64,000 nucleotides of DNA from Xenorhabdus griffiniae (GTDB lineage: Bacteria > Pseudomonadota > Gammaproteobacteria > Enterobacterales > Enterobacteriaceae): contig NZ_CP147737.1 of NCBI RefSeq assembly GCF_037265215.1, forward strand, positions 3,070,001 to 3,134,000, written 5' to 3'. This document shows, one piece after another, positions 3,016-46,374 of this stretch. The notes below the pieces were generated by a model. The model ran no database searches and was not told the DNA's origin. It worked only from the letters and a program-made list of their open reading frames with translations. How positions within the stretch are numbered: position 1 is the stretch's first letter; the number at the start of each line of letters is the position of its first letter. A program made the position numbers and the translations under genes.

Positions 3016-4048
3016 TTATGAGAGTTTCATATTTCCTGTTCCTTTCCAACAGGTTGCTGAAGCGGTATTCAAGAAAATCTTAACTCTTTTGATGAGCTGC
3101 CACATATATTGGCAACAATGATTGCGTGTCACCGTTTCATGGAGTGATTGCCATAATCGTTCTATTTTGTTTAACCAGGGCGAGTAGACTGGAAGAAATA
3201 GAAGTGTCATGGTAGGATTATTCAACAGCCATTCTCTGACCTTCTTACTTTTATGGATACTGTAATTATCTAAAATCACGCTCAGCATTTCTGCATCACG
3301 ATAGATTCGCTTTAATACTTCTAACATATTGATAAATAAATCCGAGCTTTTTCTCATGCCCCCCGTAGACACGATCTTTCCTGTTTGGGCATCAAGACAA
3401 CCGGCAAAATAATATTTTTGATTTTGACCGGGTGTCACAACCCGTTTTTGTTGGCCTTTAAAGTACCAGTCAGCGCCAATTTTAGGATTGAAATCAATAT
3501 CAACTTCATCTTCATAAACAACAGGATGTTTTTTGCAAGCCTGAGAAAGTGCTTCAGTAATACGCGCCATTTTTTCGTCATATTCGGGAGCAGATTGTTT
3601 TAAGGTAGGGGCCGCTCGTCGCCAGACAATGCCTTGCTTGCAGAAGTAACAGTAAAGTGTGCTGATGGAAAGAGCAATATGCATATATTTTCTGAGTAAA
3701 AACACAAAAAATGAAAGACTCCAGCGAGAACCGAGATAGCCAAATTGCTGGGGCATGCTCCAAAAAATAAGAGAGAAGAGGCAGATAACGTGCTAAATGC
3801 CACTGAATATGACGCCCGGCAGGTAAGCTCGGTAAGCCCTCCCATCCTTGTTCTCTAAACTTTTTCAGTCAACGCCAAACGGAAGATTCGGCGCAACAAA
3901 GTATCCTCGCCACTTGGGGGACAGAATGTGTTTTACACAGTAGAAGTATCCCCATGATCCGCCGTGCATAATTTTTATCACGTGTTTTTTGAACGATTTT
4001 TTTCATCTGCCGACGTTCATTTCGTGAAGTGGGTGGTATGATAAGCAT
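3016..4048 (-). mobile_element. Degraded IS630-family insertion sequence (transposase pseudogene)
   Basis: The transposase runs from an ATG at 4048 to a stop at 3016 but is broken. The N-terminal helix-turn-helix part (RRIMGILLLCKTHSVPQVAR) is cut by an in-frame TGA near 3873, followed by frameshifts between about 3850 and 3750. The catalytic part is open from 3756 and keeps the IS630 DDE acids: YEDEVDIDFNPKIGADW, VILDNYSIHKS and NKIERLWQSLHE. It cannot make full-length transposase. I could not define terminal inverted repeats or a TA target duplication by eye, so the boundaries are those of the coding remnant. Confidence 0.85.
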
Positions 4049-4544
4049 GACTCGATCCTTTTTTCTGTGATTTTGCGTTTTGGGAACAAAAATTTCGCAA
4101 ATTTAGAATCGAGTTTCTTTGATACTCCTACCATTTTGACAAGCTATATAAGATAAATAACCTATTTCAACATACAATTATTAAAAATTAACATGGCAAA
4201 TTCAATAACCATAAAATAACATAGTATTCACCTTCAAATAACATGCAAATTATAATAATTTACTTTTCAAAAAATTTATTCGTCAAATTCACACATAGCC
4301 ATATGATTTTAAATGTTTTAAATGTTTTAAATGTTTTAAATGTTTTAAATGTTTTAAATGTTTTAAATGTTTTAAATGTTTTAAATGTTTTAAATGTTTT
4401 AAATGTTTTAAATGTTTTAAATGTTTTAAATTAAGTTAAAATTCAATTGGTAAAAATTACAGTAATAATTTATTGAGGTAAGTATAATTTATTCATATAA
4501 AAACAATATATATAATTTTAAGTTTATATAATTTGGAGAGAAAA
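4049..4544. other. Upstream region of the CDPS operon
   Basis: Very AT-rich and without a gene. It contains the IS630 flank, the 9-bp tandem array at 4307-4431, and about 110 bases between the array and the CDPS start in which the operon promoter presumably lies. The small ORF that runs through the array is only the translation of the repeat. Confidence 0.6.
4307..4431. repeat. Tandem repeat of TTTTAAATG, about 13.9 copies
   Basis: A perfect array of a 9-base unit runs without interruption for 125 bases. Each unit holds the palindrome TTTAAA. It ends 113 bases before the CDPS start codon, so it lies in or just above the promoter. Because the unit is a multiple of three, a change in copy number would not alter a reading frame but would alter spacing and DNA bending. 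Perfect identity between copies suggests recent expansion by slippage. Confidence 0.97.
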
Positions 4545-5276
4545 ATGTCCGAGTTGCTAATAAAAGATCCAGAACTAAATATTAAACCTGAAAGATATCG
4601 TACGAAAACGGCTTTTGTTTTTCCAGAAAGGAAAAGAAATAGCTTTGAATATGAAGATGAATGCTTTTTAGGTGTTAGCTTAGAAAATAAAAACTTCAAC
4701 TCTGAAAGATTCATTTCTATGATAGAATGGGTGAATAGACGATTTAGTAAATGTAAAATATTGATTGGGGATAGTATTCATAGAATCACTCTGGAAACAA
4801 TTTATGGTTATCAACCTGATGAGGCTTTTTCAAAAGCAATAATTATTGGTAAAGAATTTATTAATAAAGCTGAAACTCAATTAATGGATGTTAATTATAG
4901 AACTGAATTTTCTTTTATTACTTGTAGTGAAATTCAAAGTACGAAACTATATAAAAATTATAATATAAAGCTTGTTGATTTCTTTTCTTCTTCAAAAAAT
5001 TTTAAAGAATCAATTGAAAGTTTTGGTAAGAAATATCATAAAAACAAATGGGATGGTTTGAGTGAATATGAAAAAAAATATCGCTTAAATAAATCTAGTC
5101 AATATTTTTTAGAGGAGTTCTCTATCTTTGCATGTCTTGTTAAAAACGGCTCTAAAGTGATGGTCTATCCAGGAACTTTCAGTTCTCTGGCAGAAATAGC
5201 AGAAGGAAAGCATAAAGGTATCATCCAAGAGCTAGAAGATCTTACTGTGGTCTCTTTAAATATAAAAAGGAGATAA
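4545..5276 (+). CDS. tRNA-dependent cyclodipeptide synthase (CDPS)
   Basis: Predicted to take two aminoacyl-tRNAs and form a cyclic dipeptide (2,5-diketopiperazine) in the cytoplasm. The signature CFLGVS ends in the nucleophile Ser45. The second signature YFLEEFSIF holds Tyr187 and Glu191, matching AlbC Ser37, Tyr178 and Glu182; Ser-to-Tyr spacing is 142 here and 141 in AlbC. Tyr208-Pro209 follow, as in the XYP subfamily. At 243 residues the length is typical. I place the start at ATG 4545, because GGAGAG at 4535-4540 is its ribosome site; a TTG 12 bases earlier is in frame but overlaps that site. The oxygenase gene begins one base after the stop, so this is the first gene of an operon. Photorhabdus is known to encode CDPSs. 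The amino acids used here cannot be told from sequence. Confidence 0.9.
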   Translation: MSELLIKDPELNIKPERYRTKTAFVFPERKRNSFEYEDECFLGVSLENKNFNSERFISMIEWVNRRFSKCKILIGDSIHRITLETIYGYQPDEAFSKAIIIGKEFINKAETQLMDVNYRTEFSFITCSEIQSTKLYKNYNIKLVDFFSSSKNFKESIESFGKKYHKNKWDGLSEYEKKYRLNKSSQYFLEEFSIFACLVKNGSKVMVYPGTFSSLAEIAEGKHKGIIQELEDLTVVSLNIKRR

Positions 5277-5277
5277 T

Positions 5278-6246
5278 ATGTTGTATAAAAGTAAAAAAAA
5301 TAATTGGAAATTAGAAAAAGGAAAAATTTATAGTAATGTTTATTATAAACGTACTGATGAAAGACCTGTAACTAAAATTGCATCCCTACAACAAGCTATC
5401 ATATTGGATAATAAGCTACATTTCCCCTCGTCAGATATACGTAGTCAAGCTATTAATGATGGTGTTTTTTTTCTTGAAATTCCATCATGGATTAATTTAG
5501 ATGAATGTGATTCTTTTGCATCTAATTTTTATAGAGAGGATAATTCCCATAGTTATAGTAGATTTAGGAAAATCACTTCAGCTTTTTTTGATGATCCACT
5601 TCTCGGTTTTCATACACGTAGTGATCAAATAGAGCAATTTTTACTTGAGCGTCGATTTTGGCAAGATGTTTATCCTAATGCTATAACTAGTACTGGAGTC
5701 AACTTAATAAGATTAAGCAAAATAATTTTGCACTCTATTTTAGAATTAACTGATATTCCGATTAAAGATTGGTTCACAGCGACCGGTGGGTGTATTGATA
5801 CACAAGGAACTTATCACCTTACATTCAATCATTATCGTCCATATTTCCAAGGCATTGGTTTATCTTCTCATAAGGATGACGGATTTTTAACAATTTTACG
5901 TAGTAATTCTCCCGGATTGGAAGTAAATATTGATAACATATGGGAATCGGTTTCTCCACTAGAGAATCATTTTATTATTAACTTTGGTCTTTCTATGGAG
6001 ATATTAACAAAAAACACCATTCAGCCAGTAAATGCAATTATGCATAGAGTTTCACATCAATTAAAAGATAGGCATACATTTGGTCATTTTACCTCAAGCT
6101 ATTGTAATCCAGGAGAAGACGCAGGAATTTATAGTTATTCATCTGAACAAGGATTATTTAAAATATGCAATTCAAGAGAGCTAATTAATTTTAATGATGA
6201 AGAAATATATGAAGGTACATATCCACCTGATGGGAAGAATTTATGA
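5278..6246 (+). CDS. Fe(II)/2-oxoglutarate-type oxygenase 1 (isopenicillin N synthase-like)
   Basis: A 322-residue member of the isopenicillin N synthase-like non-haem iron family. It should bind Fe(II) through His198, Asp200 (SSHKDDGF) and His256 (IMHRV). The usual RxS co-substrate motif appears as RHT (DRHTFGHFT), so 2-oxoglutarate binding may be altered. GTYHLTFNHYRP lies just before the iron site and recurs almost unchanged in oxygenase 5. AGGAG precedes the ATG, which follows the CDPS stop by one base; its own stop overlaps the next start in ATGA. This indicates tight translational coupling. By context it probably hydroxylates or desaturates the cyclodipeptide. It has an N-terminal extension of about 30 residues compared with oxygenase 2. 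Confidence 0.85.
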   Translation: MLYKSKKNNWKLEKGKIYSNVYYKRTDERPVTKIASLQQAIILDNKLHFPSSDIRSQAINDGVFFLEIPSWINLDECDSFASNFYREDNSHSYSRFRKITSAFFDDPLLGFHTRSDQIEQFLLERRFWQDVYPNAITSTGVNLIRLSKIILHSILELTDIPIKDWFTATGGCIDTQGTYHLTFNHYRPYFQGIGLSSHKDDGFLTILRSNSPGLEVNIDNIWESVSPLENHFIINFGLSMEILTKNTIQPVNAIMHRVSHQLKDRHTFGHFTSSYCNPGEDAGIYSYSSEQGLFKICNSRELINFNDEEIYEGTYPPDGKNL

Positions 6247-7130
6247 AATTAGAAAAATATATTCCAGAGTGCGCTAGTTTTATAGATGGTAATTTACACC
6301 TAAAATCAAAAGAATCTTTAATTAAAGCATTAAAGGATGGATTTTTCTCTTTAAAAATACCTGAATATTTTGATTTAAAGCCAGGAATTAAAATATCAAA
6401 AAATTTTTATATTGATAAAAATAGTACTGCCATTAAACAATTTGATGGATATAAAGGCTATAAAAAGGAAAAAGATATTTATTTCAATCATGAAAATTAC
6501 CAAATAGAAAATATTTTGATTGATAAAGATAAAAGAGAAAAGCTATTTCCAAAGGAATTAAATGAACTATGTGATAAAATGCATGGTATAGGAAAGAACA
6601 TCTTATGTGAAGTACTTTCTTTTGTTGGAGTTAACAATTCACTGTGGAAAAAGATAACTGATGATGCTACTAATGGAGGTGGTATAAAATGGTTTACAGC
6701 CAATCATTATAGATCAAATTTAAACTTAGATGGAGCTCCAGCCCATAAAGATACTGGATTTATTACTGTATTATATTGTGATAAACCTGGTCTTGAAGCC
6801 TATATTGATGGAAAATGGCTTGATGTTGATATATGTAATAAAAGTTTTTTAATTAATTTTTGTGGAGCACTTGAGTTACTAACTAAAAATATGGAAATTC
6901 CTGTTAATGCTGTACTACATAGAGTTAGAAAACATGAAAAAAAAACGCATGAAGAAGATAGATTTTCTTTTGCAGCTTTTATAAACCCTGCAAGTTATAA
7001 GTATCTATATCAAGTTGATAATAATGGTTCATTTGCAAATGAAATTATTTTATGTAAGGATTTTTTGCTAGAATTTAATAAGAAAACCTGGTCTGATAGA
7101 TATTCGGATTTTGGTATTTTAAAAAAATAA
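6243..7130 (+). CDS. Fe(II)/2-oxoglutarate-type oxygenase 2
   Basis: A 295-residue paralogue of oxygenase 1. The facial triad is His168, Asp170 (PAHKDTGF) and His226 (VLHRV), and the C-terminal co-substrate motif is canonical (RFSFAAF, RxS). The preceding NHYRSN corresponds to NHYRP in its relatives. It overlaps the stop of oxygenase 1 by four bases. It is most like oxygenase 3 in spacing (identical residue numbers for the triad). It is the gene immediately before the P450. The substrate is inferred from context only: a cyclodipeptide or an oxidised intermediate. Confidence 0.85.
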   Translation: MKLEKYIPECASFIDGNLHLKSKESLIKALKDGFFSLKIPEYFDLKPGIKISKNFYIDKNSTAIKQFDGYKGYKKEKDIYFNHENYQIENILIDKDKREKLFPKELNELCDKMHGIGKNILCEVLSFVGVNNSLWKKITDDATNGGGIKWFTANHYRSNLNLDGAPAHKDTGFITVLYCDKPGLEAYIDGKWLDVDICNKSFLINFCGALELLTKNMEIPVNAVLHRVRKHEKKTHEEDRFSFAAFINPASYKYLYQVDNNGSFANEIILCKDFLLEFNKKTWSDRYSDFGILKK

Positions 7131-7149
7131 TTTATACAGGTATATTTTC

Positions 7150-8559
7150 ATGAATATATTTAAAAAAAATGAAATACCATTTCCTGGAAAAATAGTTCAT
7201 CACATTGGTCCTTGCTCTAAAACAGGACATGGATCATCATTTAATGATTTTACAATAACTAAAGGAAACGATGCATCTTCTTATTTTAAATGGTCAGGTA
7301 TTTATGAGTTGGCAAATAATAACGGAGGGATATGCACTTTTTGGATGAATGATAATTTGGCATTATATCAGAGCACTAATACTCCATTAGTAGATGAATG
7401 CAATTTAGAGCCTTCTATTAATACAAACGCTGAGTTATTTGGTGATTTTATTGGAACATTATTATGCAATGATGCTGAAAGAAATAGGAAAAGATCTGTT
7501 ATAGAACGTGTTTTTGGAAATGAAAGGTTCATAAAAAATTTACAGGATGATATTAAAAAACACTTTCATTTGTATGTAGAGAGAAATCTCGATAAACAAA
7601 TCCCCTTAGATGAATTTGCTTTAAATTTAATATCTTATACGAACAGTCATTTATGTGGTGTTTTAGATCTTAAAACCAAGCCATTGAGCGATTATATATC
7701 TAGTGAAAAATATGGTTATATTGCTAAAGATTTTTTTGAAATCGCTTCCGAGGTTATCAGTAAAGTAAATCACTCATCAATACATGATGCTGATTTAATT
7801 GTTGATATGACACGAGAAATATTAAAAGATAACTTTTATTCGATTAATTTAGCGCCAAGGACTAATATTATAAAGTCACACTTTTCAGTTCTGGGATATG
7901 ACTTTACAATAGAAAACATTATGAAATTAACAACAAGTGAACTTAAAGGATTAGGAACTATTATTATTGCATCGTATGATACCACTTCATTAAGTTTTAC
8001 TTGGTTACTTCTTTATCTTAATAATAATTTTGGTTGTATTCAAAAAATTAAAAAATCCATTGAAAAAAATGAAGATGTATTAGAATTATCTCTTCTTTAT
8101 GTGTTAGAAGCCATACGGCTAGGTGGCAGTAATCCTACGGCATTATGGAGAAGGGTAAAAAATTCTTTTTCCTTAAAATTTGGTAGATACGAAATTATTA
8201 TACCTAAAGGTACAATGATTTGGCTAGACCGAAGACAGGCTAATAGGGATTCTGATATATATCCTGAACCTAATAAATTTAACATATTAAATATTAAGAA
8301 AGTTTTAACAAATGATAATCCTCTTTCAATTTTAGATAGAAGAAGAAGTGAAATAAATTCATTCAATATGATTAATACGAAAGAAATGATAAGAAAATGT
8401 CCAGGAAGATTATTTTCAGTAATAGAGCAGGCAATATTACTTTCAGAATTATATAAAAGTTACGATGTAATATTAGATGGCGGAAATCTAAATTTAGCCA
8501 AGAAATATTCAATGCCACGCCCCAAAAACTCCGGATCAATTATAATCAGAAATAAATGA
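7150..8559 (+). CDS. Cytochrome P450, divergent
   Basis: A 469-residue haem monooxygenase-like protein with no membrane anchor, so probably soluble. The I-helix oxygen-activation motif is ASYDTT at residues 274-279, the K-helix ExxR is Glu320-Arg323 (EAIR), and the haem thiolate is Cys417 in RKCPGRLF. The usual FxxGxxxC loop before the cysteine is poorly conserved (NMINTKEMIRKC), lacking the standard Phe and Gly. The length is slightly above that of common bacterial CYPs. It sits in the middle of the oxygenase operon, 19 bases after oxygenase 2. P450s act on cyclodipeptides in known CDPS pathways (aryl coupling, aromatisation), so a similar role is likely. No ferredoxin or reductase gene is nearby. 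Confidence 0.88.
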   Translation: MNIFKKNEIPFPGKIVHHIGPCSKTGHGSSFNDFTITKGNDASSYFKWSGIYELANNNGGICTFWMNDNLALYQSTNTPLVDECNLEPSINTNAELFGDFIGTLLCNDAERNRKRSVIERVFGNERFIKNLQDDIKKHFHLYVERNLDKQIPLDEFALNLISYTNSHLCGVLDLKTKPLSDYISSEKYGYIAKDFFEIASEVISKVNHSSIHDADLIVDMTREILKDNFYSINLAPRTNIIKSHFSVLGYDFTIENIMKLTTSELKGLGTIIIASYDTTSLSFTWLLLYLNNNFGCIQKIKKSIEKNEDVLELSLLYVLEAIRLGGSNPTALWRRVKNSFSLKFGRYEIIIPKGTMIWLDRRQANRDSDIYPEPNKFNILNIKKVLTNDNPLSILDRRRSEINSFNMINTKEMIRKCPGRLFSVIEQAILLSELYKSYDVILDGGNLNLAKKYSMPRPKNSGSIIIRNK

Positions 8560-8584
8560 TTTCTTTAAAATTAGGAAATATATT

Positions 8585-9475
8585 ATGACAAATGTTCTGC
8601 CAGATGCAAAAATAATCAACAATAACCTTGTTTTTTCAACCCAAGATGGTTTTATAAAAGCATGTCAATATGGTGCTTTTCATCTTAAGTATCCAGAAAA
8701 TATAGATTTCTCCCCAGGAATAAAACTTGCTCAAAATTATTATTTGGAAAAAGATGGCGGCGTACTGGATGAATATAAAGGATTCCATAAAAAAGTTTTT
8801 GACAAAAGTTTATTAGGATATTCGTCCACAGGGAATGACCAAGATGAATTACTTCAAATTGAAAATTTCCTTTGGAAAACTTATTTTCCAAAAGGTGTTT
8901 CATCACTTTTATTTAAAATTAATGCTGTCAGTAAAATAGTGCTTAATGAAATTTTTCGTTTTTATAATATTAATCATCATGATATTGAAATAATAACTGG
9001 AGGATTAAATAAGGATGAATCTCTTCAATATTGTATATTCAACCATTATCGTTCAAACATAAAACACCCTGTCGGATTAACCGCACATAAAGATAGTGGA
9101 TTCATTACTACTCTTTATACTATAGAACCAGGGTTAGAGTCTTTTTATGAAGAAAATTGGATTCCATTTGATCCTAAATGTGGTTATTTCACTATTGTTA
9201 TGGGGCATTCATTAGAAATACTTACCGAGAATAAAAATATACCAATAAAAGCAAGTTATCATAGAGTCCGCCCATCAATTGAAAGAAGACATCATAAAGA
9301 AGAACGTTTTACGTTTGGAGTATATATTGGCCCTACATGGCAGCAAAATCTTTACCAATACAGCCGTGATGGTTCTCTTGTATCTATTGAATCATTTTTA
9401 GACTTTCAGAAACGCAAAGCAAAAGAAATGAAGTACAAATTTCATCCAAAAGTGGAAGTATTATATAATAAATAA
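8585..9475 (+). CDS. Fe(II)/2-oxoglutarate-type oxygenase 3
   Basis: A 296-residue paralogue. The iron ligands are His168, Asp170 (TAHKDSGF) and His226 (SYHRV), and the RxS motif is RFT (EERFTFGVY). NHYRSN precedes the iron site, as in oxygenase 2, with which it shares triad numbering. An AGGA ribosome site lies 9 bases before the ATG. It follows the P450 by 25 bases and is co-directional, so it belongs to the same operon. Base composition is as AT-rich as its neighbours. The function is inferred as oxidation of a cyclodipeptide-derived intermediate. Confidence 0.85.
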   Translation: MTNVLPDAKIINNNLVFSTQDGFIKACQYGAFHLKYPENIDFSPGIKLAQNYYLEKDGGVLDEYKGFHKKVFDKSLLGYSSTGNDQDELLQIENFLWKTYFPKGVSSLLFKINAVSKIVLNEIFRFYNINHHDIEIITGGLNKDESLQYCIFNHYRSNIKHPVGLTAHKDSGFITTLYTIEPGLESFYEENWIPFDPKCGYFTIVMGHSLEILTENKNIPIKASYHRVRPSIERRHHKEERFTFGVYIGPTWQQNLYQYSRDGSLVSIESFLDFQKRKAKEMKYKFHPKVEVLYNK

Positions 9476-9498
9476 CTTTTATTAAGGAATAAATAATT

Positions 9499-10440
9499 AT
9501 GATTAAATCACCGACGATGAGAAAAGAAGTTAATCTTCCACCTATGCCTAATAATTATGATTCATATCAAGAAATACCTACATTTAATATGATAAAAGGT
9601 TGGTTAAATAATAATGGAGAATTAAAATTAGATAGAGATTCAGGAATGGAATCGATATTAAAACATGGCTTCTTTTTGCTAAAATGCCCTTCTGATACTG
9701 ATTTGACATTTGGTGACCTATTTGTAAATAATTTTTATAAAGAAAAACAAATGGGTGAAATGAAAGATTTTACTGGATTTAAAGAATGCATCATAAATAA
9801 TGATTATGAAGGATATTTTGATCGCCCTCATGATCAGTGGGAAAATTTTTATATAGAAAAAAATAATTGGCATCTTATCCCTAAAAAAGTGTCAGAATTA
9901 GCAAATTTGATGTCATATTCAGGAATTAGTGTATTAAAGTCAGTTTTCTATTATATTGGTGTAAATTCTATTTATTGGTCAAAAATAACAGGAGGACTAA
10001 CAGAAAATTATGGACATCAAATGATAGCTTTTAATCATTTTCGTTCAGAAAAGAAAATTCGAGGGTGTAAATTCCATCGTGATTCTGGTTGGGTAACTAT
10101 ACTACGCTCTACTGAGCCTGGACTATTAGCTTATATTGATGGAAAATTATGGGCAATAAATCCAGAACCTGGATATTTTATTGTTAATTTTGGTAGCTCG
10201 ATAGAAGTATTGACTGAGTATATGCCTTCAAAAGTTCACGCTAATATTCATGGAGTTATTCGAACAAACAAAAATGATAGTGGAAAAGATAGAGTTTCAT
10301 ATGCCCTATTTTTGGATAGTTCCCTCGATGGAGATATCTATCGCTATGGATTTAATGGACCTGAAAAGATCCAGTCTGTAACAGAATTTGCAATACAAGA
10401 AGTTAATAGGACTTATAACAATAATAATGAAGCACTTTAA
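9499..10440 (+). CDS. Fe(II)/2-oxoglutarate-type oxygenase 4
   Basis: A 313-residue paralogue with iron ligands His193, Asp195 (KFHRDSGW) and His251 (NIHGV), and a canonical RxS (DRVSYALF). It differs from the others by HRD instead of HKD and by NIHGV, where the Arg after the distal His is replaced by Gly, so it may have diverged in substrate or co-substrate handling. It has about 25 extra N-terminal residues; MRKEVNLP at residue 7 could be a second start. AGGA precedes the first ATG. It lies 23 bases after oxygenase 3. Confidence 0.84.
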   Translation: MIKSPTMRKEVNLPPMPNNYDSYQEIPTFNMIKGWLNNNGELKLDRDSGMESILKHGFFLLKCPSDTDLTFGDLFVNNFYKEKQMGEMKDFTGFKECIINNDYEGYFDRPHDQWENFYIEKNNWHLIPKKVSELANLMSYSGISVLKSVFYYIGVNSIYWSKITGGLTENYGHQMIAFNHFRSEKKIRGCKFHRDSGWVTILRSTEPGLLAYIDGKLWAINPEPGYFIVNFGSSIEVLTEYMPSKVHANIHGVIRTNKNDSGKDRVSYALFLDSSLDGDIYRYGFNGPEKIQSVTEFAIQEVNRTYNNNNEAL

Positions 10441-10458
10441 TCTTCATAAGGGGGGTAT

Positions 10459-11355
10459 ATGAAAGAAGAAGTTCCTTATAGATGGGCTGAGGCCAAACTA
10501 AATGAAGGTGAAATTTTCTTTAATACGCATGATGGATTCAAACAAGCAATACAAGATGGATTCTTTTTTATTGAAAAACCAAAATCAATAGCATTGAACT
10601 ATGGAGATCTTTTTGCTAATGAATTTTATAAAAATAAAAAAGGTGAGCGTAATGACGAATATAGAGGGTTTAGATTTTTAGATTCATCTATTCTTGGTAA
10701 GAGAGAAGGATACTTTCTTAGAAAGGAAGATCAGGTTGAACAATTTTTTCTTGAACAATCTCTTTGGGAAAGATTTTTTCCAAATGAATTGTCGAAATTA
10801 GCATATGAAATGAAAAAGTTTGCAATTCAAATTCTAGAAGCTATTTTAAGATGTTTAAATATACCAACAAAATTATGGGATAAAGCAACTGGATATAGTT
10901 TGTCAGGAAGAGGAACCTATCATTTGACTTTTAATCATTTTAGACCATCAGTTCGTGCAAGAGGATTAAATATTCATAAAGATTCTGGATGGATAACGAT
11001 ATTACGATCTTTAGAGCCAGGACTTGAAATATTAAGGAAACAAGAATGGATCCCCATTTTACCTAAAGAAGATAATTTTATTGTAAATTTTGGTTGTGCC
11101 ATGGAAATTTTGACTAAAGATACTGATATTCCTGTGGCGGCTGTAGCTCACCGTGTTACTGAACAAAAAGAAAGAAACTTAAGTGATAGATTCTCATATG
11201 CTTTATTTGTTGATAGCAGCTTAGATAAAGAGCTATGTGAAGGTTTGTATCGTTATCATCCAACGAATGGATTGTTACTTGAAACTGACTTTGAAGATTT
11301 TTTAGATAAAATAGTTTACAAAACTTATGAGAAAGACACACAAGGATTATATTAA
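10459..11355 (+). CDS. Fe(II)/2-oxoglutarate-type oxygenase 5
   Basis: A 298-residue paralogue and the last gene of the operon. The iron ligands are His173, Asp175 (NIHKDSGW) and His231 (VAHRV), with RxS as DRFSYALF. GTYHLTFNHFRP is shared nearly letter for letter with oxygenase 1, and SYALFxDSSLD with oxygenase 4, which suggests a series of tandem duplications. The ribosome site AGGGGGG is unusually strong. It follows oxygenase 4 by 18 bases. Whether all five paralogues act in turn on one product cannot be judged from sequence. Confidence 0.85.
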   Translation: MKEEVPYRWAEAKLNEGEIFFNTHDGFKQAIQDGFFFIEKPKSIALNYGDLFANEFYKNKKGERNDEYRGFRFLDSSILGKREGYFLRKEDQVEQFFLEQSLWERFFPNELSKLAYEMKKFAIQILEAILRCLNIPTKLWDKATGYSLSGRGTYHLTFNHFRPSVRARGLNIHKDSGWITILRSLEPGLEILRKQEWIPILPKEDNFIVNFGCAMEILTKDTDIPVAAVAHRVTEQKERNLSDRFSYALFVDSSLDKELCEGLYRYHPTNGLLLETDFEDFLDKIVYKTYEKDTQGLY

Positions 11356-11798
11356 TATTGATGTTTGATTTCATGCTATATGTAGTATCTAGGGCTAACA
11401 CATGGGTGCTAAAAAATTAGTTAACTGCTTGAAAATTACTTCCCAATGCAGATAAAAGTCTTTACCTTATACAAAGTAAAGGTATTATTTATAACATAAA
11501 TTATTTAGTGTAAAAAAACTCATGCGTTAGCTCTGATATTGCATCAAGGAAAATTAATTTCTAAATATATATTTACAGCATGGAATATATGAATTTTTAT
11601 ACAATATTATTCATATCAATACGACATATTTATGTATTCTTTTCAAAAAAAGAAAAGGATAAAAACTAAATTTTGATACAACTTAATCTATTAATTCAAG
11701 TATTCATATTAAGCTTGGATTCGCTTAATAAGTTCAATTTCTGAGAAAGGCGGTCAGTTGCTATAGTAGGCATCTTTCTCGCCAAAGGAAAATGCACT
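11356..11798. other. Non-coding region after the CDPS operon
   Basis: No gene is seen. It contains an inverted repeat element at 11392-11533 (listed separately), AT-rich filler, and from about 11740 the start of the IS30 remnant leader. A weak stem (CTTTAC with GTAAAG around 11460-11485) could end the operon transcript, but it lacks a good T run. Confidence 0.5.
11392..11533. repeat. Possible MITE, 15-bp imperfect inverted ends
   Basis: GGGCTAACACATGGG at 11392-11406 pairs with CTCATGCGTTAGCTC at 11519-11533, with 12 of 15 positions matching. The interior is AT-rich and non-coding. No clear target duplication is visible. It lies 37 bases after the last oxygenase stop. It could be a small non-autonomous element or the scar of an IS. 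Confidence 0.4.
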
Positions 11799-12240
11799 AT
11801 GGCCTATACACAACTGACCGGAATAGAAAGATATCAGATTTTCAGCTTAAAAGAAGCCGGTTTTACGCAACGTTTGATCGCAACGTCTCTTAAACGAGCT
11901 CCGTCAACGATTAGCCGCGAATTGAAAAGAAACCAAGAAGAACAGAAGTACTGCCCTAAACAAGTCCAACTAATACTATCGTTGGAAAAGATCATAAAGG
12001 TGCATTATTAACCTTAGTTGAACGAAAATCGCTATTTACTGTCATCATTAAACTTGAAGATAAAACAGCGGAAGAGGTTGCAAAAGCGGCGATAAGACAT
12101 TTATCACATATAAAATAAAAGATTAAAACCATCACTGTAGATAGCGGATTGGAATTTGCCAAACACGAACTTATCAGTAAAAATTTAGAAGTAGGGATGA
12201 CTTCCCAAAAGGAACCGATTTTAATCAGGTATCAGAATGA
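11799..12240 (+). pseudogene. IS30-family transposase remnant, 5' part
   Basis: The N-terminus MAYTQLTGIERYQIFSLKEA with a helix-turn-helix (APSTISRELKRN) is typical of IS30-family transposases. After about residue 55 an internal deletion joins it, out of frame, to the catalytic region (TIVGKDHKGALLTLVERKS and later ITVDSGLEFAKHE, which carries a DDE acid). An in-frame TAA near 12116 breaks it again. The C-terminal end of the same gene reappears at about 13322-13440, on the far side of an IS630 element, so the IS630 inserted into it. Confidence 0.8.
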
Positions 12241-12251
12241 GAGATAAGTGC

Positions 12252-12812
12252 TCAAGAGAAATTAATTGCAAATTGATCACCATAACCGTCCAATAGCATA
12301 TTTAGCTCATCATCCATTGTCTCTTGAGTCCAAGTGATAAAACGTCGCCAGTGATATTTGGCTTGTTTCCAGACGATTTCAATCAGATTCAGCTCTGGGC
12401 TGTAGGCGGGAAGATAAAGTAAAATCAGGTTGTGCTCCCGTAACCAGCGAGTTCTGGTTTTTTCCTCGATCCCATGGTGGATACGCGCATTATCTAGCAC
12501 TAAAAATGTCAGCCGGTTGTCTCCTTGTTGGGCTACCTGCTCTAAAAAATCAATCACATCAGCTCGCGTAACACTGCCTGATATTAGCTGGTAAAACAGC
12601 GTGTTGGCCGTGTAATTTAATGCCCCCAGAACGGACCGTCTGTGATGGTCTTGGGGTTCAGTTTCATGGGGTTTACCCCGAGGGCTCCACCCATATTGCA
12701 CCGGCGGAGATGCGGCAAAACCGGCCTCATCAAAATAGACCAGACGGTCATGTCCTGACTGGGCTCCCACCTTAATTTTGCTTAGCAAGGCGGATTTTTT
12801 AGCAAACTCCAT
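12252..12812 (-). CDS. IS630-family transposase, orfB (catalytic DDE part)
   Basis: The 186-residue catalytic half carries the DDE acids in VYFDEAGF, FLVLDNARIHH and PELNLIEIVWKQAKY. It overlaps orfA by 31 bases in the -1 frame. A run of seven A on the coding strand (T7 at 12823-12829) lies just upstream of its ATG. Reading through with a -1 slip there gives SLKKKRNEMEFAKKSALL, which matches the continuous sequence of single-ORF relatives, so the real product is probably the orfA-orfB fusion. Confidence 0.9.
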   Translation of the reverse strand: MEFAKKSALLSKIKVGAQSGHDRLVYFDEAGFAASPPVQYGWSPRGKPHETEPQDHHRRSVLGALNYTANTLFYQLISGSVTRADVIDFLEQVAQQGDNRLTFLVLDNARIHHGIEEKTRTRWLREHNLILLYLPAYSPELNLIEIVWKQAKYHWRRFITWTQETMDDELNMLLDGYGDQFAINFS

Positions 12813-13255
12813 TTCGTTGCGCTTTTTTTCAGCGACAGGCGGGTTCGTTTATAGGTGAGCCCCTGCTTTTTCAGGGTATTCGCCAGCGTTTCAAGCGTAC
12901 AGGGCAGGGAACCATGCTTTGCCTCAACGCACTGAGCGATTCGGGCGAGCGTCAGGGACTCTGCGCGAGCTGCTTCGACCGCAGTGGCAATCATTTCAGG
13001 TGTCATGGCAAGATAGCGGCCTCCGGCATGACCCCCTAATAATCCCGCTATCCCGCAATGGTGCCATGTGTGAACCCAGTTGTAGATAACCCGGAGACTG
13101 CATCCTATCTCAACGGTGATCTGGGACGGCTTGACGCCTCTGGCAAGCATGAGCAACCCCGTTCCTCGTGTCCGGACATCCCGATGTGGGTGATTCAAGG
13201 CCAGTTGTTGCAATGTCATTCGTTCAGACTCAGAAAGTGTTATCTTCGATTTCAT
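12782..13255 (-). CDS. IS630-family transposase, orfA (DNA-binding part)
   Basis: The 157-residue N-terminal half with a helix-turn-helix region (MLARGVKPSQITVEIGCSL, then IYNWVHTW) and an LTYKRTRLSLKK end is typical of IS630 transposases. On its own it lacks catalytic residues. The zero frame ends at 12782, inside orfB, after an A7 slippage site. The arrangement resembles other IS630 members that use programmed frameshifting. Confidence 0.88.
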   Translation of the reverse strand: MKSKITLSESERMTLQQLALNHPHRDVRTRGTGLLMLARGVKPSQITVEIGCSLRVIYNWVHTWHHCGIAGLLGGHAGGRYLAMTPEMIATAVEAARAESLTLARIAQCVEAKHGSLPCTLETLANTLKKQGLTYKRTRLSLKKSATKWSLLKNPPC

Positions 13256-13321
13256 AAGAACAAGTGGAAAATTGGGTTATCGTGTTATCGATTATAGCAG
13301 TAATGCAGATAATTTATCTTA

Positions 13322-13440
13322 TTAACTTAAATCTCATCGCCAATCGATTAAATAAACTCCCTCTGAAGACCCGAGATTACAATGAGTTATTTAAAGGGAC
13401 ACCCACTCGTTTACTTCGTTCATAACGGTGTTGCACTTAT
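13322..13440 (+). pseudogene. IS30-family transposase remnant, 3' end
   Basis: Translation gives RLNKLPLKTRDYNELFKGTP, the conserved C-terminal segment of IS30 transposases, then after a small frameshift NGVALIM and a stop, corresponding to the usual C-terminal end. It continues the remnant at 11799-12240 on the far side of the inserted IS630. Confidence 0.7.
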
Positions 13441-13697
13441 TATGTAAATGCAAGAAGATATATAATAAACTTTCTAACTTTAATTTGTTTTTATAATTTA
13501 CCCCAATGACATTAAACACATAAAACTATAAGTAATATTAGTTTGATTTGTACAATAAAAAACAAACCATTGTATTATTTTCATAATTGATATAGTATTA
13601 TTCTCGTTAACTTCTTTTTCCAATCCTTCCATTTTTATCTAATTGTTTTAATCCAAATTAATATTTTTTATTTCCCCTATTTTTGGAGACTCTATGC
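13441..13697. promoter_or_regulatory. AT-rich leader of the MFS gene
   Basis: There is no gene here. It is strongly AT-rich and must hold the promoter of the MFS gene unless transcription comes through the IS elements. The ribosome site GGAG is at 13685-13688. I cannot assign -35/-10 boxes with confidence in such AT-rich sequence. Confidence 0.4.
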
Positions 13698-14933
13698 ATG
13701 AATCATTTTGATTTAGAAAAACACTCGTTTCAAAGTAAACTATCCGTAGGATTATTAGCTTTATTCACTGTGACTGTCTTTTTTGTGGGGGTCACAGAAT
13801 TTATGCTATCATCAATGTTTCCCCCTATAGCAAAAGCTTTTAATACTTCTATTGATAAAGTCTCTTTTTTAATATCAGCTTATGCATTATCTTACGCATT
13901 AGCTGCGCCAGTGTTAGGATACTTCTCTGATAGAATAAATAAAGTTAAGTTATTGTTATTAGCATTGTTATTATTCTCAATGGATGGTATAGCAATTGCT
14001 TTTTCTCCAACAATAGAAATTGCTATCTTCTTAAGAGTACTAGGAGGACTTGCTTCTGCTGTAATTATACCAACGGTATTTTCATTAGTATCCGACCTAG
14101 TTCCCTATAAAAATCAAGCAAGTGCAATGGGGGGAGTTATGTTAGGAATGACGCTAGGTATTGCACTGGGACCAGTACTAGCTGGAAGTCTTAATGATTT
14201 TATTCACTGGCGAGCACCATTTATTTTTTGCGCTATCGGTTCTTTTATTATTTTTTCTGTAGGCTACTTTTATCTAAAAAAAATTAAGAATAGAAATTAC
14301 AATACCTTTCCATTAAAGAAAAAATCATTAAAAGAAGATATTAATTGGTCAGTATTACGACCATTATTTGCTAAAGGTGCCTGGAATGGTGCAGGTGTAT
14401 CAGCATTTATATTATCGGGAGAAATTTTACATCAACGTTACGGTTTTCCTCCTTCTATAACAGGATTGTCTGTTAGCTTTTTTGGCTTTGGCCTTGGTCT
14501 TGGAAACATTTCCGCTGGATTACTTCGAAAATTAATTGCAAAAGAAGAAGGAATACTAATAGCGATAAATATTATTCTTTTTATTTTTATCTCTATATTT
14601 TTCCTATTTCCCCTACCACTATGGGGATATTTTTTATGCTTAGTTGCCTGGGGATGTGCATTAGGTGCTGGAGCTCCCATCAGTACTGTAGTTATCATAA
14701 AAAGAATAACACATTATAAAACAGTTATGCTATCTCTCGCTGAGACATTAAATAATATATTCATATTTTCCCTTGTTCCTCTATCAATTATGTTTTTGAG
14801 CAATGGAAATAGATACTTATCGTTAGTGGTCTTAGGGATTGGTTTGATTATAGGATTATTATTAACTATTTTTGATTTTCTCATAATTAGGAAAAATACA
14901 AGCCACCATATAATAAAGAATGACGATTATTAA
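13698..14933 (+). CDS. MFS drug/metabolite efflux transporter (DHA1-like)
   Basis: A 411-residue integral membrane protein with about 12 hydrophobic segments, of the proton-antiport DHA1 type (residue numbering from ATG 13698). YALSYALAAPVLGYFSDR carries the loop 2-3 motif, and GVMLGMTLGIALGPVLAG is the motif C region of antiporters. The ORF opens at TTG 13683, but ATG 13698 has GGAG nine bases upstream and is the better start. An identical TTGGAG arrangement is seen at the CDPS gene. Base composition matches the CDPS operon, from which it is separated by the IS nest. It may export the oxidised cyclodipeptide or give self-resistance; this is inference from position. Confidence 0.85.
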   Translation: MNHFDLEKHSFQSKLSVGLLALFTVTVFFVGVTEFMLSSMFPPIAKAFNTSIDKVSFLISAYALSYALAAPVLGYFSDRINKVKLLLLALLLFSMDGIAIAFSPTIEIAIFLRVLGGLASAVIIPTVFSLVSDLVPYKNQASAMGGVMLGMTLGIALGPVLAGSLNDFIHWRAPFIFCAIGSFIIFSVGYFYLKKIKNRNYNTFPLKKKSLKEDINWSVLRPLFAKGAWNGAGVSAFILSGEILHQRYGFPPSITGLSVSFFGFGLGLGNISAGLLRKLIAKEEGILIAINIILFIFISIFFLFPLPLWGYFLCLVAWGCALGAGAPISTVVIIKRITHYKTVMLSLAETLNNIFIFSLVPLSIMFLSNGNRYLSLVVLGIGLIIGLLLTIFDFLIIRKNTSHHIIKNDDY

Positions 14934-14993
14934 TATACCCATCGCCATTGAAGATGCTTGATTTCTTATCCAAACCAAATCATGTTTGCAACC

Positions 14994-15872
14994 ATGAAAA
15001 TTCATCTGACACCAGAACAAAAACGTGCCCTCGAATTGATGCATGATACCACTCGTGACAGTCGGGTCTGTGATCGTATCAAGGCCGTGCTGTTGGCATC
15101 AGAGGGCTGGACAGCTCAGATGATTGCCCAGGCCTTACGTATTCATGAAAGTACGGTCAGCCGTCACCTAAAAGATTTCATCGCTCAGGAAAAACTCATC
15201 CCAGAAAATGGCGGTTCTGAAAGCCATCTCTCTGCCGAACAAACCGCCGACCTGATTGATTATTTGGTGGCAAATATGTGGAATCAACGCTTAGAAGAAC
15301 AAAGCTCCGTTCGCCTTACCGAAGTCGGCTCAAGGGGGGAAGCTAATTTTTGGATCTCCACAGCAAATGATGAACAAGAAATTGCTCTGAATGGGGATCT
15401 TGCCCAGACAACTTTAGTTTTACCGGATGGCATTATTAGTGATTATTCCCAGCCACATTTTAATATCCCTGGAATAGTATTATCAAATGAAATTCACTAC
15501 ACAGAAGATACTTTCAATTCAGTCCAAAGAGCATTATTTGATACTATGACAGAACAAGAAGTTGCAAGCATGATTATTTATCAAACTATATCTCATGAAT
15601 TTGGTCATGCTTTAGGTCTACTTCATCCATCTGAAAATCAAGAAGACGTCGACTTATATAGTAACGAATTTTCCATAGACACACAGGGCAGACATATTCT
15701 TGCCATGACAGTAACAGCACAGCGTCGCTTGGGACAGCAAGACTCCAACGTGCCATTAATGACACCTGATGATACTTATTTTGCCGCGTTGTCTTATCAA
15801 CTGCATAGACGATTAGAAGAGAGAGATAAAAGAGATATTCTCATTCGCAGAGAGTTGCACAGAAAAACCTAA
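14994..15872 (+). CDS. Chimeric ORF: IS630 transposase N-terminus fused to a metzincin protease domain
   Basis: Residues 1-95 or so (MKIHLTPEQKRALELMHD to LIDYLVANM) are the helix-turn-helix part of an IS630 transposase. From about residue 95 the sequence changes to a zinc metalloprotease: SSVRLTEVGSRGEANFWIS resembles the first strands of matrixin-type domains, and HEFGHALGLLH at residues 201-211 is a full HExxHxxGxxH metzincin zinc site. ILAMT further on could be the Met-turn. The protease has no signal peptide or pro-region of its own, so an IS insertion seems to have removed its 5' end and supplied a start codon in frame. ATG 14994 is the usual IS630 start; no clear ribosome site is seen. 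It may be non-functional debris or a new fusion. Confidence 0.75.
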   Translation: MKIHLTPEQKRALELMHDTTRDSRVCDRIKAVLLASEGWTAQMIAQALRIHESTVSRHLKDFIAQEKLIPENGGSESHLSAEQTADLIDYLVANMWNQRLEEQSSVRLTEVGSRGEANFWISTANDEQEIALNGDLAQTTLVLPDGIISDYSQPHFNIPGIVLSNEIHYTEDTFNSVQRALFDTMTEQEVASMIIYQTISHEFGHALGLLHPSENQEDVDLYSNEFSIDTQGRHILAMTVTAQRRLGQQDSNVPLMTPDDTYFAALSYQLHRRLEERDKRDILIRRELHRKT

Positions 15873-40979: not shown

Positions 40980-42659
40980 ATGAATTTTCATATTAATTAT
41001 AACCTCCGAAATGGCTTGTTTTTTATGACTCTAATAGCTTATTTATATCGTCAATCTTGGGTATTACTGTTGGTATCGACAATAAGCGCATTAATTAGTG
41101 GGTTTGCCGGTGCTTCGATAGTTGGGATGATCAGTCAAGGAGTAACAGAAGAAATTAACCTGATTACATTTCTTTGGAGCTTTTTTGGTATCTGTTTTAT
41201 TTTTTTTATTACTAAGACTGTGTCAGAAATTACATTATCGCATTTAGCCCAATCCACGGTTTTTTCATTACGTCTAAGTTTAAGTAATAAAATTTTGCGG
41301 GCACCACTTAAAAAACTACATAAACTTGGGCGGCACGGTCTATTGGCGGTTTTAACCAAAGATGTCGATGTTTTTGTACACTCCTTTATGTTGGCCCCCT
41401 CTGTTTTTGGTAATATCACCCTAATCATAGCCTGTTTTGGTTATTTAGCCTGGATGTCATGGCAACTGTTTCTCATTTTAGCGGCACTTAGCCTTATCGG
41501 TATGTATGTGTTTTATCTATGGGAAAAATATCCATTACAATTAATGACAGATATGCGTGATCAAATAGATAAAATATACCTTAATTTCCAAAGCCTGATT
41601 GATGGCAGTAAAGAGCTGCAACTCAATAAACAAAAAGGAAATCTTTTCATTGATAAAGTGATTGCACCTGCTGCCAAAGTGTTCCAGGAGATCTGTATTA
41701 AAGCGAACTCCAGCTATGCTTGGGTGATTAATGCCAGTTCTGTAACATTTTATGTCATGATTGGTATTATTATTTTTGTTGTTCCGATTTGGCTTCCCCA
41801 GGAACCATCAACATTGGTGACTGTATCGTTGCTTGTTCTCTTCTTATCAGGCCCAATCAGTGAAGTTATTGGCGCAATTCCGGAGCTGAGAGAGGCGGAA
41901 GTTTCATTAAATAAAATGCGGCGTCTTGACAGCCAACTGGAAGAAGCCCTGTCGGCACAAATTGAAGGTCCCAACCCATTTAACAAACAGCAAGCCATCG
42001 AGATTGAGCTGAAAGATGTTATCCACCATTACACAACGGATAAAGAAGATCGCCAGTTTGCACTCGGTCCATTAAGTTTAAAAATATCGCAAGGTGAAAT
42101 TGTTTTTATTGTCGGTGGGAATGGCAGTGGGAAAACAACTCTTGCTATGTTGCTTGTTGGCCTGTTTGAGCAAGAATCCGGTACTATCTCATTAAATGGT
42201 GTGGAAGTTACACCAGCAAATAATGAACATTATCGTCAACATTTTGCGGCCGTTTTTTCTGATTACCATCTATTTGAGCAGTTACTCAATAGCGATGCGA
42301 ATGTCACCGAAAAAGCAACACATTATATTGAAGCATTAAATATGGCGCACAAAGTTAAAATTGTTGATGGCGGATTTTCCACCACAAATCTTTCCGCAGG
42401 TCAACGGAAGCGACTGGCTTTAGTTTCAGCTTACCTGGAAGACCGCCCTATTTATCTGTTTGATGAGTGGGCCGCCGACCAGGACCCTGTGTTTAAACGC
42501 TTATTCTATACTGAACTACTGCCGGAATTAAAAGCCAGAGGTAAAACTGTCCTGGTTATTAGTCATGACGATGCTTACTTTAATATATCTGACCGCATTA
42601 TTAAATTAGAGGATGGTCATATTAAAGAAGTTGATCACAAGGACCATTATATTCAATAA
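40980..42659 (+). CDS. Cyclic peptide export ABC transporter (fused permease-ATPase)
   Basis: A 559-residue inner-membrane half-transporter of the SyrD/PvdE/YojI group that exports nonribosomal and cyclic peptides. Six membrane helices lie in residues about 15-300. The ATPase has Walker A GGNGSGKTT, signature LSAGQRKRLAL, Walker B IYLFDEWAADQDP and the switch His in VISHDD. ATG 40980 opens the frame; ATG 41025 (MTLIAYLYRQS) would suit the family N-terminus, but neither has a strong ribosome site. A terminator follows, and the NRPS genes start 440 bases on in the same direction. By position it corresponds to the exporter of PAX-type loci. Confidence 0.9.
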   Translation: MNFHINYNLRNGLFFMTLIAYLYRQSWVLLLVSTISALISGFAGASIVGMISQGVTEEINLITFLWSFFGICFIFFITKTVSEITLSHLAQSTVFSLRLSLSNKILRAPLKKLHKLGRHGLLAVLTKDVDVFVHSFMLAPSVFGNITLIIACFGYLAWMSWQLFLILAALSLIGMYVFYLWEKYPLQLMTDMRDQIDKIYLNFQSLIDGSKELQLNKQKGNLFIDKVIAPAAKVFQEICIKANSSYAWVINASSVTFYVMIGIIIFVVPIWLPQEPSTLVTVSLLVLFLSGPISEVIGAIPELREAEVSLNKMRRLDSQLEEALSAQIEGPNPFNKQQAIEIELKDVIHHYTTDKEDRQFALGPLSLKISQGEIVFIVGGNGSGKTTLAMLLVGLFEQESGTISLNGVEVTPANNEHYRQHFAAVFSDYHLFEQLLNSDANVTEKATHYIEALNMAHKVKIVDGGFSTTNLSAGQRKRLALVSAYLEDRPIYLFDEWAADQDPVFKRLFYTELLPELKARGKTVLVISHDDAYFNISDRIIKLEDGHIKEVDHKDHYIQ

Positions 42660-42681
42660 AATGAAATAAAGCTTATCGCAG

Positions 42682-42710
42682 AGAGCCTGATAAAGCAGGC
42701 TCTTATTTCA
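42682..42710 (+). terminator. Terminator after the ABC exporter gene
   Basis: AGAGCCTG at 42682-42689 pairs with CAGGCTCT at 42696-42703 around the loop ATAAAG, followed by TATTTC. It lies 22 bases after the stop. Confidence 0.75.
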
Positions 42711-42822
42711 CTTTATATACCCAGAAAAACCTGAGAAAAAATCACTAACGGTAATAAAATTTATTACATAATTCCTATAATAAAATGAGATACATTAGAA
42801 AAACATTATTAGAAATGTGTAA

Positions 42823-42928
42823 TATGTCAATCATCTTTCAAGACGTGCCTTATATCTCCGCCGCTAAGCGGGGAGATATAAACAATTACATTGATTTGCA
42901 AGCTGCAACTTGAAGTTGGATTGGTATA
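42823..42928. repeat. MITE-like element, copy 2 (about 106 bp)
   Basis: The ends are TATGTCAATCATCTTTCAAG at the left and, on the other strand, TATACCAATCCAACTTCAAG at the right. The second nearly equals the end of copy 1 at 2604-2707. The centre is a hairpin (TTATATCTCC with GGAGATATAA around GCCGCTAAGCGG). Its place between exporter terminator and NRPS promoter means it could affect NRPS transcription. Confidence 0.6.
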
Positions 42929-43098
42929 AACATAACTTCCTAATCGGCAAGAAGGAATTAAATAAATATAAAAAATAAGACTGTTCTTTTTTATTAGAAT
43001 GGTCAGTTATTTTTATTGTTAAAACCCAAGTGTGATTTTTTGTTTTATCAGTTCTCATGTTTTTATTTTTAATGTACCCATAAAAAGGGAGCTATAGA

Positions 43099-46000: not shown

Positions 46001-46338
46001 ATCGCAAAGCTCTGCCTGCTCCCGATCACACAGCGATGTCAAGTCGTGAATATGCGGCTCCAGAAAGCGAAACCGAAACGCAATTGGCCGCCATTTGGCA
46101 AACATTATTGGGGCTGGATCGGGTAAGTCGCTATGACAACTTCTTTGAGCTAGGTGGTCATTCTCTGTTAGTGCTACAGCTACAGTCGCAAATAAAACAA
46201 ACATTTGATGTTGAATTATCTATTCATCAACTGTTTTCCCACCCAACCCTCTGTCAACTTGAAGAATGCATTATTGACTCTCTATTGCTGCAATTCGATT
46301 CAGAGTCTCTGCAAGATGTTTATAAATCAATGAATTAG
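43099..46338 (+). CDS. paxA: NRPS, one module C-A-T, serine-type pocket (PaxA-like)
   Basis: A 1079-residue synthetase: condensation domain (about 5-450), adenylation domain (about 480-980), carrier (about 1000-1060, Ser1022 in FFELGGHSLL). The C-domain active site is FDHLAVDGW, with catalytic His139 but Asp in place of the first His. As the first domain of the line with nothing upstream, it is a candidate lipo-initiation (starter C) domain. The adenylation pocket read by eye against GrsA is D-V-W-H-L-S-L-I-D-(K), the well known serine code. It sits 36 bases before the two-module gene. The 1+2+at least 3.5 module layout and the adjacent exporter match PAX lipopeptide loci, so the symbol is tentative. 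Confidence 0.92.
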   Translation: MNYPEKLKSFPLSEAQRSRWFQYQIDPDKRGQNNSAFCARIKGLTAKRLEEALNKLVQRHPMLRASFGLHHGELGYCIADSANITLAVQDAQHLSEETLKQRVHDDCWHMFDLAHPLRVYASWYQCNQQESVMVLTFDHLAVDGWSYWMLLDELDALLSAKPLEPAPENSFHDYVEWQQQWLKSTSAKKQQQFWQNTLAGDLAVSQWPPKNSPLPATGKISLKKIINQSLTHKLQTLALKYDNSLFAVFLAAYQILLSRYTAVDDVIIGSILPGRGRARWGKLVGEFINPVALRCQINRDMTVQEHITQAMKTIRQGIENQKYPFTKILEQLKLQRNAEVHPVFQTVMIFQKARYIGDLTTLWMAEDDDITVQWGNAELRPFPYPLYADVPVPLMINVLESGEHIGYTFYYDTAIFDAAFISQLMQNLLTLLEAMVNDEQQTIDRLPLMDEQARQKILHDFNNTDKPFPQHALIHQFIEQQAARNPTAIALLYENTQLSYMELNQRANQLAHALVATGIHPDDRVAVCMERSLDMVISLLGILKAGAAYVPLDPEYPTDRLAYILSDSEPVILLTHHGLQEQLPVTEIPVWFLDNPTVQANITRQDNDNLEAAYLGLTSRHLAYVLYTSGSTGLPKGVMNEHRGVVNRLLWAQEAYQLTPHDRVLQKTPFSFDVSVWEFFLPLMVGAQLVMARPGGHKEPHYLLEEIERRHITTIHFVPSMLQSFLHYIPAGRCLSLRQILCSGEALPYALQQHCLSHLPHSELHNLYGPTEAAIDVTAWQCVPDRYIGQVPIGQPIANIQIYILDTHGEAVPIGMAGEIYIGGVGVARGYLNLPELTAERFINDPFNADPDARLYKTGDLGRWLPDGSIAYLGRNDFQVKIRGLRIELGEIETCLTQCAGIREAVVIARDNGPHDKRLVAYLIPNQDSTPSISQLREQLSRTLADYMIPAAFVVMEAFPLSPNGKLDRKALPAPDHTAMSSREYAAPESETETQLAAIWQTLLGLDRVSRYDNFFELGGHSLLVLQLQSQIKQTFDVELSIHQLFSHPTLCQLEECIIDSLLLQFDSESLQDVYKSMN

Positions 46339-46374
46339 ATTTTAATTTACCTTGTTTTAAATGGTGATAATCAA

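Follow-up and report, generated by a model that had tools for sequence, protein, structure and literature searches.

Bicyclomycin gene clusters were reported from Streptomyces and Pseudomonas aeruginosa in 2018 as a set of seven biosynthetic genes, bcmA to bcmG, together with bcmT (PMC5930311; this and all other papers are cited here for excerpts of their text). In the clusters of S. cinnamoneus and P. aeruginosa, bcmA encodes a cyclodipeptide synthase (CDPS), bcmB, bcmC, bcmE, bcmF and bcmG encode dioxygenases, bcmD encodes a cytochrome P450 and bcmT a transporter of the major facilitator superfamily (MFS) (PMC5930311), and those clusters that have been characterised make bicyclomycin (PMC5930311, PMC6934819). 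Here, a stretch of 64,000 nucleotides from Xenorhabdus griffiniae ID10 is analysed (the window; assembly GCF_037265215.1, contig NZ_CP147737.1, positions 3,070,001 to 3,134,000 of the forward strand), in which the genes from position 4545 onwards match bcmA-G plus bcmT in number, kind and order. We are almost certain that these genes form a complete bicyclomycin (bcm) cluster of the Gram-negative type, apparently functional and apparently acquired horizontally by X. griffiniae ID10. It is the seven biosynthetic genes, and not the MFS gene, that carry the identification.

A genome paper from 2024 lists bcmA-G in X. griffiniae ID10 (CP147737.1), names bicyclomycins as the product, and describes strain HGB2511 as being without the bcm cluster (PMC11566119). 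As the genome contains a single match to the CDPS of the window, the bcmA-G genes of that paper are the same locus; the cluster is already in print and the pathway is not an undescribed one. A preliminary description of this DNA had recognised no described product for such a layout, which is that of bcmA-G and bcmT with bicyclomycin as its product (PMC5930311, PMC6934819). Its supposition that all enzymes act on one product is borne out by this identity, which implies a single pathway with six oxidases working in turn on one small diketopiperazine.

Gene content of the operon

The operon consists of seven tightly packed genes on the plus strand (4545-11355) in the order CDPS, two oxygenases, P450 and three oxygenases, which corresponds to A-B-C-D-E-F-G, with spacings from a 4-nt overlap up to 25 nt; the preliminary description of a CDPS, five oxygenase paralogues and a P450 without real gaps was correct in this respect. 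The first gene, bcmA (4545..5276, +), encodes the CDPS with cyclo(L-Ile-L-Leu) as its predicted product. It is followed by bcmB (5278..6246, +), a Fe(II)/2-oxoglutarate (2OG) dioxygenase whose S. cinnamoneus counterpart carries out a hydroxylation and the formation of the ether bridge (PMC6934819), by bcmC (6243..7130, +), a Fe(II)/2OG dioxygenase and hydroxylase according to the same source, and by bcmD (7150..8559, +), a cytochrome P450 hydroxylase named for its identity to S. cinnamoneus BcmD. In the Gram-negative numbering, the next two genes are bcmE (8585..9475, +), the orthologue of the Gram-positive bcmF or terminal desaturase, and bcmF (9499..10440, +), the orthologue of the Gram-positive bcmE or first hydroxylase (PMC5930311, PMC6934819). 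The last gene is bcmG (10459..11355, +), a hydroxylase of the Fe(II)/2OG dioxygenase type. Further downstream lies an MFS transporter gene (13698..14933, +), which by its position is probably bcmT of the Gram-negative type.

All seven bcmA-G frames and the MFS frame are open on the plus strand, with ATG starts adopted at 4545 and 13698 and alternative TTG starts located 12 and 15 nt upstream. The Pfam families CDPS, 2OG-FeII_Oxy (five times), p450 and MFS_1 were all matched above their curated cut-offs. In the NCBIfam scan, tRNA_cyclodipep was above the cut-off for the CDPS and no match was obtained for the five oxygenases or the P450. Calling the oxygenases isopenicillin N synthase-like, as had been done before, holds at the level of the superfamily; more exactly, they are Bcm-type 2OG-Fe(II) dioxygenases.

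Catalytic residues and enzyme assignments

The residues Ser45, Tyr187 and Glu191 of the CDPS, which had been picked out beforehand as catalytic landmarks, are invariant in all 25 aligned sequences, and a metagenome fragment of 153 residues is 88% identical to BcmA. The HxD...H iron ligands are intact in all five dioxygenases of the window. In the alignments they are kept in 12 of 12 rows for BcmC (H168/D170/H226), for the 8585-9475 protein (likewise H168/D170/H226) and for BcmG (H173/D175/H231), while for BcmB H198/D200 are present in 13 of 13 rows and H256 in 12, the exception being a truncated protein of Photorhabdus khanii. For the 9499-10440 protein, H193/D195 and H251 are each found in 12 of 13 rows, the exceptions being the two halves of a split S. 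somaliensis gene (both halves were counted and the short P. khanii row was omitted). The P450 retains E320 and R323 of the ExxR motif and the haem ligand C417, invariant in the 12 rows (13 aligned) that have a letter there. It shares 43% identity over 460 columns with the UniRef-named BcmD of S. cinnamoneus and 50% with a P. aeruginosa P450 (289 member sequences), which is presumably the BcmD of strain SCV20265.

Four of the five dioxygenases have close counterparts in the PDB: the best match is 7v2t for 5278-6246 (2.7e-105), 8xhp for 6243-7130 (1.3e-69, with 8xhq close behind), 8xhy for 9499-10440 (1.8e-102) and 8xht for 10459-11355 (1.8e-107). The PDB names of the matched chains say just "dioxygenase". 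A literature search for BcmB together with bicyclomycin and a crystal structure found no paper, so the link between these chains and Bcm enzymes is drawn from the best matches only.

If the chemistry known from the literature applies here, BcmA would join isoleucine and leucine from their aminoacyl-tRNAs to form cyclo(L-Ile-L-Leu), which the five dioxygenases and the P450 would hydroxylate, bridge and lastly desaturate to bicyclomycin. BcmT, with the MFS gene as the putative exporter, would then release the antibiotic, which, going by its literature target, would inhibit the transcription terminator Rho in competitors. We infer that the copy in the window is expressed and makes bicyclomycin itself.

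Orthology and the order of bcmE and bcmF

Scanning the GTDB genome collection with the CDPS alignment yielded 30 CDPS loci, whose genes were matched by tblastn (1e-10). All seven A-G genes are matched at 11 of these; the rest comprise one fragment (P. khanii), four cyanobacterial loci with CDPS and P450 only, and 14 with the CDPS only. Some of the few-gene loci stop near contig ends, which may account for missing genes (the short-contig loci L033, L045 and L046 measure 3.2, 4.0 and 9.4 kb). In a dioxygenase tree of 58 rows, five clades of 11 or 12 rows each (B, C, E, F and G) are recovered with supports of 98-100 / 96-100, and every clade holds exactly one protein of the window. This protein pairs with the orthologue from Paraburkholderia humisilvae in all five clades, in four of them with starred support; the pair of 9499-10440 has a support of 91/86. 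The tree was built without rows shorter than 280 or longer than 345 residues (P. khanii B and F, Williamsia B) and without the two S. somaliensis F rows that are split across frames. All five window rows deviate in letter make-up from the tree alignment.

Gram-negative BcmE groups with Gram-positive BcmF, and vice versa (PMC5930311). The window follows this rule: its 8585-9475 protein falls together with the products of the sixth gene in actinobacterial clusters, and its 9499-10440 protein with those of the fifth. By analogy with S. cinnamoneus BcmE and BcmF, 9499-10440 should catalyse the first hydroxylation and 8585-9475 the final desaturation (PMC6934819).

Several of the loci found in this survey deserve mention in their own right. 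In Streptomyces somaliensis, one of the 11 full loci, the P450 and one dioxygenase are frame-split, possibly through decay or sequencing error. Pseudomonas fragi D12 (L055, 10001-17165) is Gram-negative and has a complete bcm cluster, yet with the actinobacterial order of genes five and six; its proteins pair with Actinokineospora in clades B and E, are outermost in C and F and take no resolved position in G. As this order departs from the Gram-negative rule (PMC5930311), the cluster perhaps stems from a separate transfer. In the cyanobacteria Symploca and Okeania (L033, L043, L045, L046), a CDPS resembling BcmA precedes a P450 that resembles BcmD (42-44%), and no Bcm dioxygenase was matched; this is possibly a different diketopiperazine pathway, although three of the four contigs are short. 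A Prochloraceae cyanobacterium metagenome-assembled genome (L042, 10001-13904) shows three consecutive CDPS-like matches (42%, 31% and 32%), and Pseudomonas sp. KFB-139 encodes a protein of 797 residues with P450 and 2OG-FeII domains (P0249), apparently BcmD fused to a neighbouring oxygenase.

Probable horizontal acquisition and mobile elements

The cluster looks horizontally acquired, going by its low GC content, the surrounding transposase genes and the distribution of the CDPS in the genus. The genome is a single contig of 4,767,870 bp with a GC content of 43.91% (PMC11566119, Table 1), compared with 26-31% for the individual genes A-G and 32.5% for the MFS gene. The preliminary description had rightly pointed to Xenorhabdus/Photorhabdus. 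Among 30 Xenorhabdus genomes searched, one has the CDPS. The CDPS was not found in the other genome of the species X. griffiniae, a draft of 270 contigs. A search with BcmB gave no bcm-like match in the other 147 of 148 genomes (21 had weak matches only, best E 2.0e-8), and tblastn against a plasmid collection gave no match. X. bovienii entries carry a P450 and an MFS protein each 80% identical to those of the window, so at least one further Xenorhabdus probably has the cluster.

Upstream of the cluster, a DDE_3 transposase open reading frame (ORF) is located at 3016..3756 on the minus strand. A second transposase on the minus strand, consisting of two overlapping ORFs (12252..13255; DDE_3, HTH_29) between bcmG and the MFS gene, is presumably IS630-like and has one more full copy (99%) and three partial matches in the genome. 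These genes fit the association of bcm clusters with mobile elements that has been reported (PMC5930311). The ORF at 14958-15872 has a transposase-like helix-turn-helix at its N-terminus and, in its second half, the stretch HEFGHALGLLHP. We take this stretch to be a metallopeptidase-like motif, and the ORF resembles the remainder of a transposon joined to part of a peptidase.

Weighing the assignment against its alternatives

A number of observations weigh against a bicyclomycin cluster that is functional and complete with its exporter. None of the 24 relatives in the CDPS alignment exceeds 54% identity to BcmA, which means that the Ile/Leu specificity of BcmA is assigned by homology only, and the 8585-9475 protein has no strong PDB match (best 8xhq, 4.3e-36). 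In the passages cited, bicyclomycin in ID10 is a prediction from cluster homology (PMC11566119), and in native P. aeruginosa SCV20265 bicyclomycin was undetectable in spite of an intact cluster (PMC5930311). The MFS exporter noted earlier is indeed encoded nearby; it lies, however, outside the uninterrupted unit, separated from bcmG by 2,342 bp including the opposite-strand transposase (12252-13255). The MFS protein shares 49% of its residues with the one encoded directly after bcmG in P. humisilvae, close to the 43-47% of the longest, full-length matches to other MFS genes of the genus and below the 52-56% of several Photorhabdus proteins. Moreover, MFS matches with E 1e-20 or better, mostly at 42-48% identity, are present in 24 of 30 genomes of the genus, and the protein falls under every NCBIfam cut-off listed (Bcr/CflA, 67.6 of 200.9 bits). 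An MFS protein of S. cinnamoneus, BcmH, is dispensable (PMC6934819).

The MFS sequence comparison is indecisive, and it is position, strand and low GC content that speak for the bcmT label. The closest relatives of the protein are just two, at 91% and 80% (X. bovienii). The genome also contains, at 2304385-2305539, another gene of this MFS family (46%), with two internal stops. Expression of bcmT, of unnamed source in the excerpt, made E. coli resistant to bicyclomycin (PMC7443133).

An altered target was also considered as a means of self-resistance. Of the 419 positions of Rho in this genome, 403 agree with E. coli Rho (strain E308), and none of the 16 differences falls on a residue which we take to be a bicyclomycin contact; the target is therefore probably sensitive.

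The strongest alternative, itself unlikely, is that the copy is silent or decaying, with insertion sequences breaking the cluster up as in P. khanii. Such a process would be in keeping with the transposase that separates bcmG from the MFS gene and with the transposase-related ORFs on both sides, and also with the cluster of P. khanii NC19 (L027), which is fragmented with F, A and a truncated B on the contig (PMC5930311). Against this, none of the seven biosynthetic frames is interrupted, nor is that of the MFS gene, and the catalytic residues of the enzymes have been kept. A good deal less probable is a shifted substrate or oxidation pattern which would lead to a related, undescribed congener of bicyclomycin. 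Identity of the biosynthetic proteins to their counterparts in the other complete clusters is 38-59%, and for the 8585-9475 protein just 33-37% outside P. humisilvae (52% there), the branch of the window BcmC is long (1.48), and Bcm enzymes are promiscuous (PMC6934819). However, the P. aeruginosa proteins are only 30-56% identical to those of Streptomyces and the bicyclomycin is still stereochemically identical (PMC5930311), a range within which the window falls; the deviant letter make-up, which BcmC has in common with the remaining four rows of the window, is in keeping with AT-rich genes and may make the branch longer. An undescribed pathway, as first supposed, has practically no probability left, as nothing favours it beyond the earlier failure to recognise the layout and it is refuted by the gene-by-gene match to a characterised cluster with a known product, the ID10 genome paper (PMC11566119) and the dioxygenase tree.

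A tandem repeat upstream of bcmA

A perfect tandem array of the 9-bp unit TTTTAAATG with 13.9 copies (4307..4431; TRF, 100% matches) sits in a leader of 17% GC, 113 bp upstream of bcmA. Three consecutive exact units occur in one of 30 genomes of the genus, and there only in this array. Within 600 bp upstream of bcmA, none of 12 other loci has a similar array, with L029, L035 and L052 showing imperfect repeats of about two copies. A coding role was considered and no convincing reading frame was found; a promoter scan upstream of bcmA was uninformative (6 sites against a shuffle mean of 5.4). The passages of the literature cited here make no mention of the array, and no regulatory process is known for the bcm operon according to the excerpt of PMC6934819. 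It is conceivable, if rather improbable, that the array expands and contracts by slippage and thereby switches or tunes the antibiotic operon (phase variation), which, if true, would be an undescribed control of bicyclomycin production. It could also be a meaningless AT-rich expansion.

Elsewhere in the window, an ABC transporter gene is followed by two nonribosomal peptide synthetase genes (40980-53046; 1079 and 2223 aa) with three condensation and three adenylation domains in all, a second biosynthetic cluster.

Comparison with known bcm clusters

The cluster of P. humisilvae (L028) has the seven A-G genes, the MFS gene and the E/F order in common with the window. With P. aeruginosa SCV20265 and the Gram-negative type (PMC5930311) the window shares the CDPS, five 2OG dioxygenases, the P450, a downstream MFS gene in the same orientation and the E/F order; it differs from SCV20265 in the transposase between bcmG and the MFS gene, its AT-richness, the 9-bp repeat before bcmA and the host. 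The S. cinnamoneus cluster contains the same seven enzymes with E and F swapped and with bcmT/bcmH upstream in the opposite orientation (PMC5930311, PMC6934819). The Photorhabdus locus NZ_AYSJ01000007 (P. khanii NC19, given as P. temperata in PMC5930311) has a CDPS at 55% and is associated with transposases like the window, but it is fragmented while the cluster of the window is complete. Apart from the testable repeat ahead of bcmA, the value of the locus lies in the presence of a complete bcm cluster in a symbiont that is pathogenic to insects, as a counterpart to the fragmented one in Photorhabdus.

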